Positions 752-19,590 of a stretch of 32,399 bases of DNA are shown here, piece after piece; position 1 is the first letter of the stretch, and the number at the start of each line of letters is the position of its first letter. The DNA is taken from assembly GCA_017882785.1 (NCBI GenBank), contig JADGOV010000025.1:1-32399 (forward strand), in the 5' to 3' direction. Position numbers and translations under genes: made by a program. The stretch comes from Frankiaceae bacterium. Lineage in GTDB: Bacteria; Actinomycetota; Actinomycetes; JADGOV01. The notes below the pieces were generated by a model that saw nothing but the letters and a program-made list of their open reading frames with translations, ran no database searches and was not told the DNA's origin.

Positions 752-824
752 CGGGGCGTAGCGTAGTGGCTAGCGCGCCTGCTTTGGGTGCAGGAGATCG
801 GGAGTTCGAGTCTCCCCGCCCCGA
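752..824 (+). tRNA. tRNA-Pro (anticodon TGG)
   Basis: A 73-nt cloverleaf: acceptor arms CGGGGCG (752-758) and CGCCCCG (817-823), discriminator A at 824, a D arm beginning GCGT, anticodon stem CCTGC/GCAGG around loop TTTGGGT (anticodon TGG), and T arm CGGGAGTTCGAGTCTCCCG-like with the invariant TTCGA. Initial C of the acceptor stem is typical of bacterial tRNA-Pro. CCA is not encoded. It sits 80 bases upstream of tig and on the same strand; a shared promoter cannot be excluded. Confidence 0.95.
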
Positions 825-11166: not shown

Positions 11167-11260
11167 CGCCGATCATGCTCCAACGCGCGTTGGACTCGCC
11201 GATCATGCTCGAATGCGCGGTGTCGCCTTCTCCCGAGCGTCCGATTGAGCATGATCGGCG
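11167..11260 (+). repeat. Intergenic GATCATGC repeat element, copy 1
   Basis: CGCCGATCATGCTC occurs at 11167-11180 and again at 11197-11210 (30-bp step), and its exact reverse complement GAGCATGATCGGCG at 11247-11260. Between the direct copies is a perfect 14-bp palindrome, CCAACGCGCGTTGG (11180-11193). The outer arms could fold into a 14-bp stem. The element fills the middle of the 283-base gap between the hypothetical gene and ndk; no gene is seen there. A second copy with the same spacing lies at 19497-19590. Confidence 0.85.
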
Positions 11261-19443: not shown

Positions 19444-19496
19444 GAGGCGACGAGCCGCCACCCGCACGTGACCTGCGCGTGCGTACCCTCGGCCGC

Positions 19497-19590
19497 GGCG
19501 ATCATGCGAGAACGCGCGTTGGAAGCGGCGATCATGCGAGGACGCGCGTTGGAATCCGAGTATCAACGCACATTTGAGCATGATCGGCGC
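19497..19590 (+). repeat. Intergenic GATCATGC repeat element, copy 2
   Basis: GGCGATCATGCGAG is found at 19497-19510 and 19527-19540 (30-bp step), each followed by ACGCGCGTTGGAA, and the inverted form GAGCATGATCGGCGC at 19576-19590. The three GATCATG/CATGATC cores have centres at 19503, 19533 and 19582, i.e. steps of 30 and 49 bases, exactly those of copy 1. It begins 53 bases after the DinB gene; no gene is seen in the 19444-19712 gap. Confidence 0.85.

Follow-up and report, generated by a model that had tools for sequence, protein, structure and literature searches.

Tail-to-tail half-site arrays dispersed after genes in a Frankiaceae genome: candidate duplex docking sites for a putative bridging protein

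The genome of a Frankiaceae bacterium carries a dispersed family of short arrays in which two half-sites are set tail to tail at a constant distance, and we regard it as an even call that these arrays are duplex sites read by a putative bridging protein. The observations comprise the family itself, its geometry, the independence of its two arms, flanks in which neither homology nor target duplication was found, and a location on the 3' side of genes. The family was first seen as two copies in a stretch of 32,399 nucleotides (hereafter the window), which is contig 157 of a genome of 3,215,427 bases in 230 contigs from the class Actinomycetes.

In the window, copy 1 has GATCATG cores at 11171 (+), 11201 (+) and 11250 (−); those of copy 2, 8.33 kb away, lie at 19500 (+), 19530 (+) and 19579 (−). 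The core spacings of 30 and 49 are identical in the two copies, so that the arrangement originally predicted, two direct cores and one inverted core at these distances, is matched exactly at both loci. The heptamer occurs 13 times in the window compared with 3.3 expected, a count reached in none of 100 shuffles. The whole array of copy 1 (11167–11260) has CGCC/GGCG edges and consists of an optional third unit, the outer direct half-site CGCCGATCATGCTCCAACGCGCGTTG (11167–11192, +), followed after a 30 bp step by the left half-site (11197–11222, +) and after a further 48 bp step by the inverted right half-site (11235–11260, −) of an obligatory pair that measures 56 bp core to core (11201–11256). 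Copy 2 (19496–19589) has the same geometry, with its outer direct half-site at 19496–19521 (+) and its pair at 19526–19551 (+) and 19564–19589 (−), or 19530–19585 core to core. The palindrome CCAACGCGCGTTGG, which had been placed between the direct cores of copy 1, is indeed present at 11181–11194, but it forms the inner portion of the first unit and is not a separate feature, since the family consensus CGAACGTACGTTCG of that unit is itself near-palindromic. Genes near the arrays in the window encode NDK, a mycothiol-S-transferase/DinB protein and a radical SAM protein, and the gene preceding copy 1 gave no Pfam match. Near the start of the window lie two tRNA genes on opposite strands, at 512–582 (−) and 752–824 (+), and downstream of them are ORFs read as a putative trigger factor, clpP, clpP and clpX.

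Behind the two window copies is a larger genome-wide family, and the description of the element as two-copy was therefore superseded by genome counts of 64 for the exact pair and 36 for the exact triple. The pairs follow the tail-to-tail pattern GATCATGC-N(30-52)-GCATGATC, nearly always with N = 40, and the reversed-pattern control gave none; CGATCATGCTC occurs 102 times in the genome, with a control count of zero. The genome search suggested with the original prediction thus returned further copies with conserved spacing. For finer analysis, 1.06 Mb of stretches from the same genome was used, most of it chosen around matches, so that densities within it are not genome averages. Of the 66 pairs in these stretches, 63 were spaced at 48 bp and three at 47 bp, while the units were sharply conserved and the spacers were unrelated to one another and at background composition, as anticipated by the proposal that the geometry itself is selected.

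The half-site consensus is CGCCGATCATGCTcGAAcGnrCGTT, and a perfect GATCATGC is present in 127 of the 132 pair members. In 0.75 Mb, a half-site matrix (positions −4 to +21) matched 147 times at a score of at least 20, whereas reversed sequence gave no match, a contrast sharpened by the training of the matrix on perfect-core units. The inner part of the half-site is weakly palindromic (0.470 versus 0.453 expected). A LexA box was considered because the consensus resembles CGAAC-N4-GTTCG, and was rejected; the best conserved positions fall in the N4, and other dialects of the element are without such a box. Optional direct units are added outward in the same orientation at 29–32, 40–41 or 51 bp, places that differ by about one helical turn. 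The distant spacings of 40, 41, 41, 51 and 51 bp all fall within about 1 bp of 30 + 10.5k (p of about 2e-4 for a uniform range of 33–60 bp, estimated by hand), where five independent spacings were used, the two 41s of contig 41 were counted once, and three units with weak scores, at 24, 35 and 36 bp, which do not fit, were left out. Neighboring direct units are more alike than random units (0.65 versus 0.55), which suggests that units have been duplicated locally in tandem. On contig 41 (L090:6103–6382), two whole arrays lie about 183 bp apart, both with the 41 bp direct spacing, as if one array had been duplicated in tandem.

According to genes called with a home-made codon-bias caller, 61 of 64 elements lie outside predicted genes. 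Among 58 placed arrays, 15 occupy convergent regions, an enrichment over the 54 of 394 background intergenic regions (p = 0.007), and eight occupy divergent regions, a depletion relative to 110 of 394 (p = 0.011); where the flanking genes are co-directional, the upstream stop is the nearer end in 25 of 35 arrays. The pairs thus favor gene 3' ends and convergent regions. No functional coherence was found among the scanned neighbors, and a search across genomes for a mobilizer or binder gene common to array neighbors returned only abundant families (GGDEF/EAL, ABC transporter and two-component) and ribosomal L13/S9. Arrays lie upstream of rplM-rpsI both in this genome (L089, near 10158) and in genome G157 (L220, near 9165), a sharing that is about at chance level for these copy numbers as estimated by hand.

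Most of the 395 genomes searched within the class gave between zero and two matches, and several actinobacterial families were found to carry the octamer GATCATGC with lineage-specific suffixes. All 14 copies in G057 span 56 bp, as do all those listed among the 21 copies in the searched range of G073; other carriers are G157 (21 copies), G257 (14), G092 (52), G029 (8), G005 (7) and G083 (9), and G045, which belongs to the genus of G092, carries a single copy versus 52. Pair spacing varies in G092 and G029, and stretches of G157 contain pair spacings of 35–37 and 47–48 bp, about one helical turn apart. In G092, six of 27 clusters are without an inverted pair, half of these being lone units, and some clusters consist of direct units only. 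The same genome has extended arrays that mix direct and inverted GATCATGC units, up to ten in number, in steps of about 28–62 bp (for example L203:16729–16920 and L212:10315–10694), denser than any array in the Frankiaceae genome. The sampled part of G045, a genome without the GATCATGC family, contains a different small repeat around GCGGTAGC, in which direct steps measure 20 bp and the distance to inverted partners is 34 or 54 bp (L257:17868–18006 and L258:13632–13866). A GTDB contig scan with the exact 58-bp pattern gave mostly conserved coding matches in Burkholderiales or chance matches, together with one Frankiaceae metagenome-assembled genome (L125) with two such pairs, and viral contigs and plasmids gave no match. 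A phylum-wide search with a GT-flanked core, a pattern that misses elements with other flanks, including those of the Frankiaceae genome itself, found one genome of the same class and none from other classes. Literature searches for the motif returned nothing relevant.

The position of the elements shortly after stop codons and in convergent intergenic regions would suit an RNA hairpin that terminates transcription or stabilizes mRNA 3' ends, and the pairs could form a perfect outer stem of 12 bp with a mean folding energy of −35 kcal/mol. However, complementarity at variable arm positions was 0.496 compared with 0.501 for shuffled pairings, real pairs folded no better than chimeras with swapped arms, and the two partners of a pair resembled each other slightly less than random units do. 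Where flanking genes are co-directional, 44 G-U and 41 A-C combinations were counted on their sense strand, so that G-U is not in excess; element length is fixed, and the direct units of G092 that have no inverted partner also speak against a hairpin. An Rfam search at the elements matched no family. Arm independence was likewise observed in G092 (0.790 versus 0.783 shuffled), and arm covariation was absent in G073 and seen in G057, where it probably arises in part from mixed sub-dialects. The folded RNA offered in the original prediction was rejected on the arm-swap, covariation and wobble tests, all of which were null, and we consider the hairpin explanation improbable; the lack of arm covariation and of better folding speaks for two duplex half-sites, putatively read by protein, rather than for a selected RNA hairpin. 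A DNA uptake sequence with lineage dialects, also used in inverted pairs, is far more improbable still. Uptake sequences are present in hundreds to thousands of copies, many of them single. The abundant single copies, many in genes, that such a sequence should show were not found; about 180 units are present in the match-enriched 1.06 Mb, against the hundreds to thousands expected, and the half-site matches outside arrays are few, lie mostly inside predicted genes and look like chance matches. What recalls the uptake sequence dialects described in Neisseriaceae (PMC3630211) is a constant core with lineage-specific neighbors and inverted pairs; the present family differs in having far fewer copies, essentially none single, and a fixed pair spacing.

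A further alternative, a REPIN-like non-autonomous mobile doublet whose ends would be recognized by a transposase other than Y1/RAYT, whose spacer drifts and whose 3' location reflects tolerated insertions, is possible, although we consider it less likely than docking sites. The usual explanation of REP-like repeats invokes RAYT transposases together with hairpins. In Pseudomonas fluorescens SBW25, REPINs are REP doublets that form hairpins at a spacing of 71 bp, compared with 48 bp here, and compensatory changes in their arms are common; shared with them are extragenic inverted doublets, a short conserved sequence at the ends, a characteristic spacing, a less conserved spacer (PMC3116915), and genome-wide dispersal with some larger clusters. 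REPs are often dimers in opposite orientation, found chiefly 3' of genes and where the neighboring genes are convergent or co-directional, and CGTC-tagged families without a dedicated transposase exist (PMC3733652). The family described here resembles GTAG/CGTC REPs in its small repeats, its frequent inverted dimers and its preference for gene 3' ends and convergent regions; unlike theirs, its unit is not a tagged palindrome, the constant part being GATCATGC and the consensus being without a terminal GTAG/CGTC tag. The patchy distribution and the uniformity of the suffix within a genome also favor a mobile doublet. However, a search of 11 genomes, the Frankiaceae genome and ten others, gave no match to the RAYT/IS200 transposase (PF01797), with control genomes positive; the flanking target duplications suggested for inspection in the original prediction were no commoner than direct repeats in permuted flanks; no homology was found among array flanks; the spacer is not shared; the arms are without compensatory changes; and recurring array neighbors include no mobilizer-like gene. 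The elements are not a recent insertion, given the flanks without homology or target duplication and the failure to find PF01797. A classical MITE is not supported, since neither a target-site duplication nor shared internal sequence or flanks were found. Membership of the RAYT-associated REP/REPIN class is not supported either, because PF01797, compensatory changes and the tag were not found, the end sequence moreover differing from that of SBW25 REPINs. Of the REP/BIME-like character originally proposed, the layout thus stands (inverted doublets, extragenic, on the gene 3' side) and the RAYT that defines RAYT-driven REP families does not. The family shares the layout of a REPIN population, and REPIN identity is withheld because neither the transposase nor compensatory change in the stem was found.

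In the docking-site explanation, each element would be a platform on duplex DNA, with two half-sites of about 26 bp set tail to tail, their distance fixed at 48 bp and the pair measuring 56 bp from end to end, each half-site made up of the core GATCATGC common to the families and a lineage-specific suffix. Further direct half-sites would be added outward, with approximately whole helical turns between their usual places (30, 40–41 and 51 bp), and a putative sequence-specific protein able to bridge two half-sites would read them. The protein array site named in the original prediction is supported by these stepped direct units and by arms that evolve independently; the fixed 48 or 47 bp spacing, the background-composition spacers, convergent enrichment and divergent depletion agree with it. 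Against docking sites stand the failure to find a binder among array neighbors, which share no function, the dependence of the helical-phase argument on five spacings that the weak units misfit, and the variable pair spacing of G092 and G029. Furthermore, a spreading element fits the patchy distribution (52 copies in G092, one in G045) and the genome-wide change of suffix at least as well. Docking sites and a mobile doublet are partly compatible, as the reading protein could also spread the elements.

Because the sites are scattered, mostly close past stops and between convergent genes, the elements would most likely serve an architectural or boundary role, through local nucleoid bridging or as a roadblock after genes, and not as promoter operators. 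A broader and rather doubtful proposition is that the GATCATGC arrays of several families are read as duplex by one conserved protein, which would bridge half-sites at a fixed distance after genes and coevolve with dozens to hundreds of sites, as a RAYT-less counterpart of REP/REPIN systems. In layout the family resembles the known REP/REPIN kind, yet Y1 transposase and arm covariation were not found. As a well-populated family with a REPIN-type doublet layout, a 3' location and dialects, it is a clean case for asking what conserves such repeats, and the 56-bp pair with its 48-bp register provides an exact bait for fishing out the putative protein.
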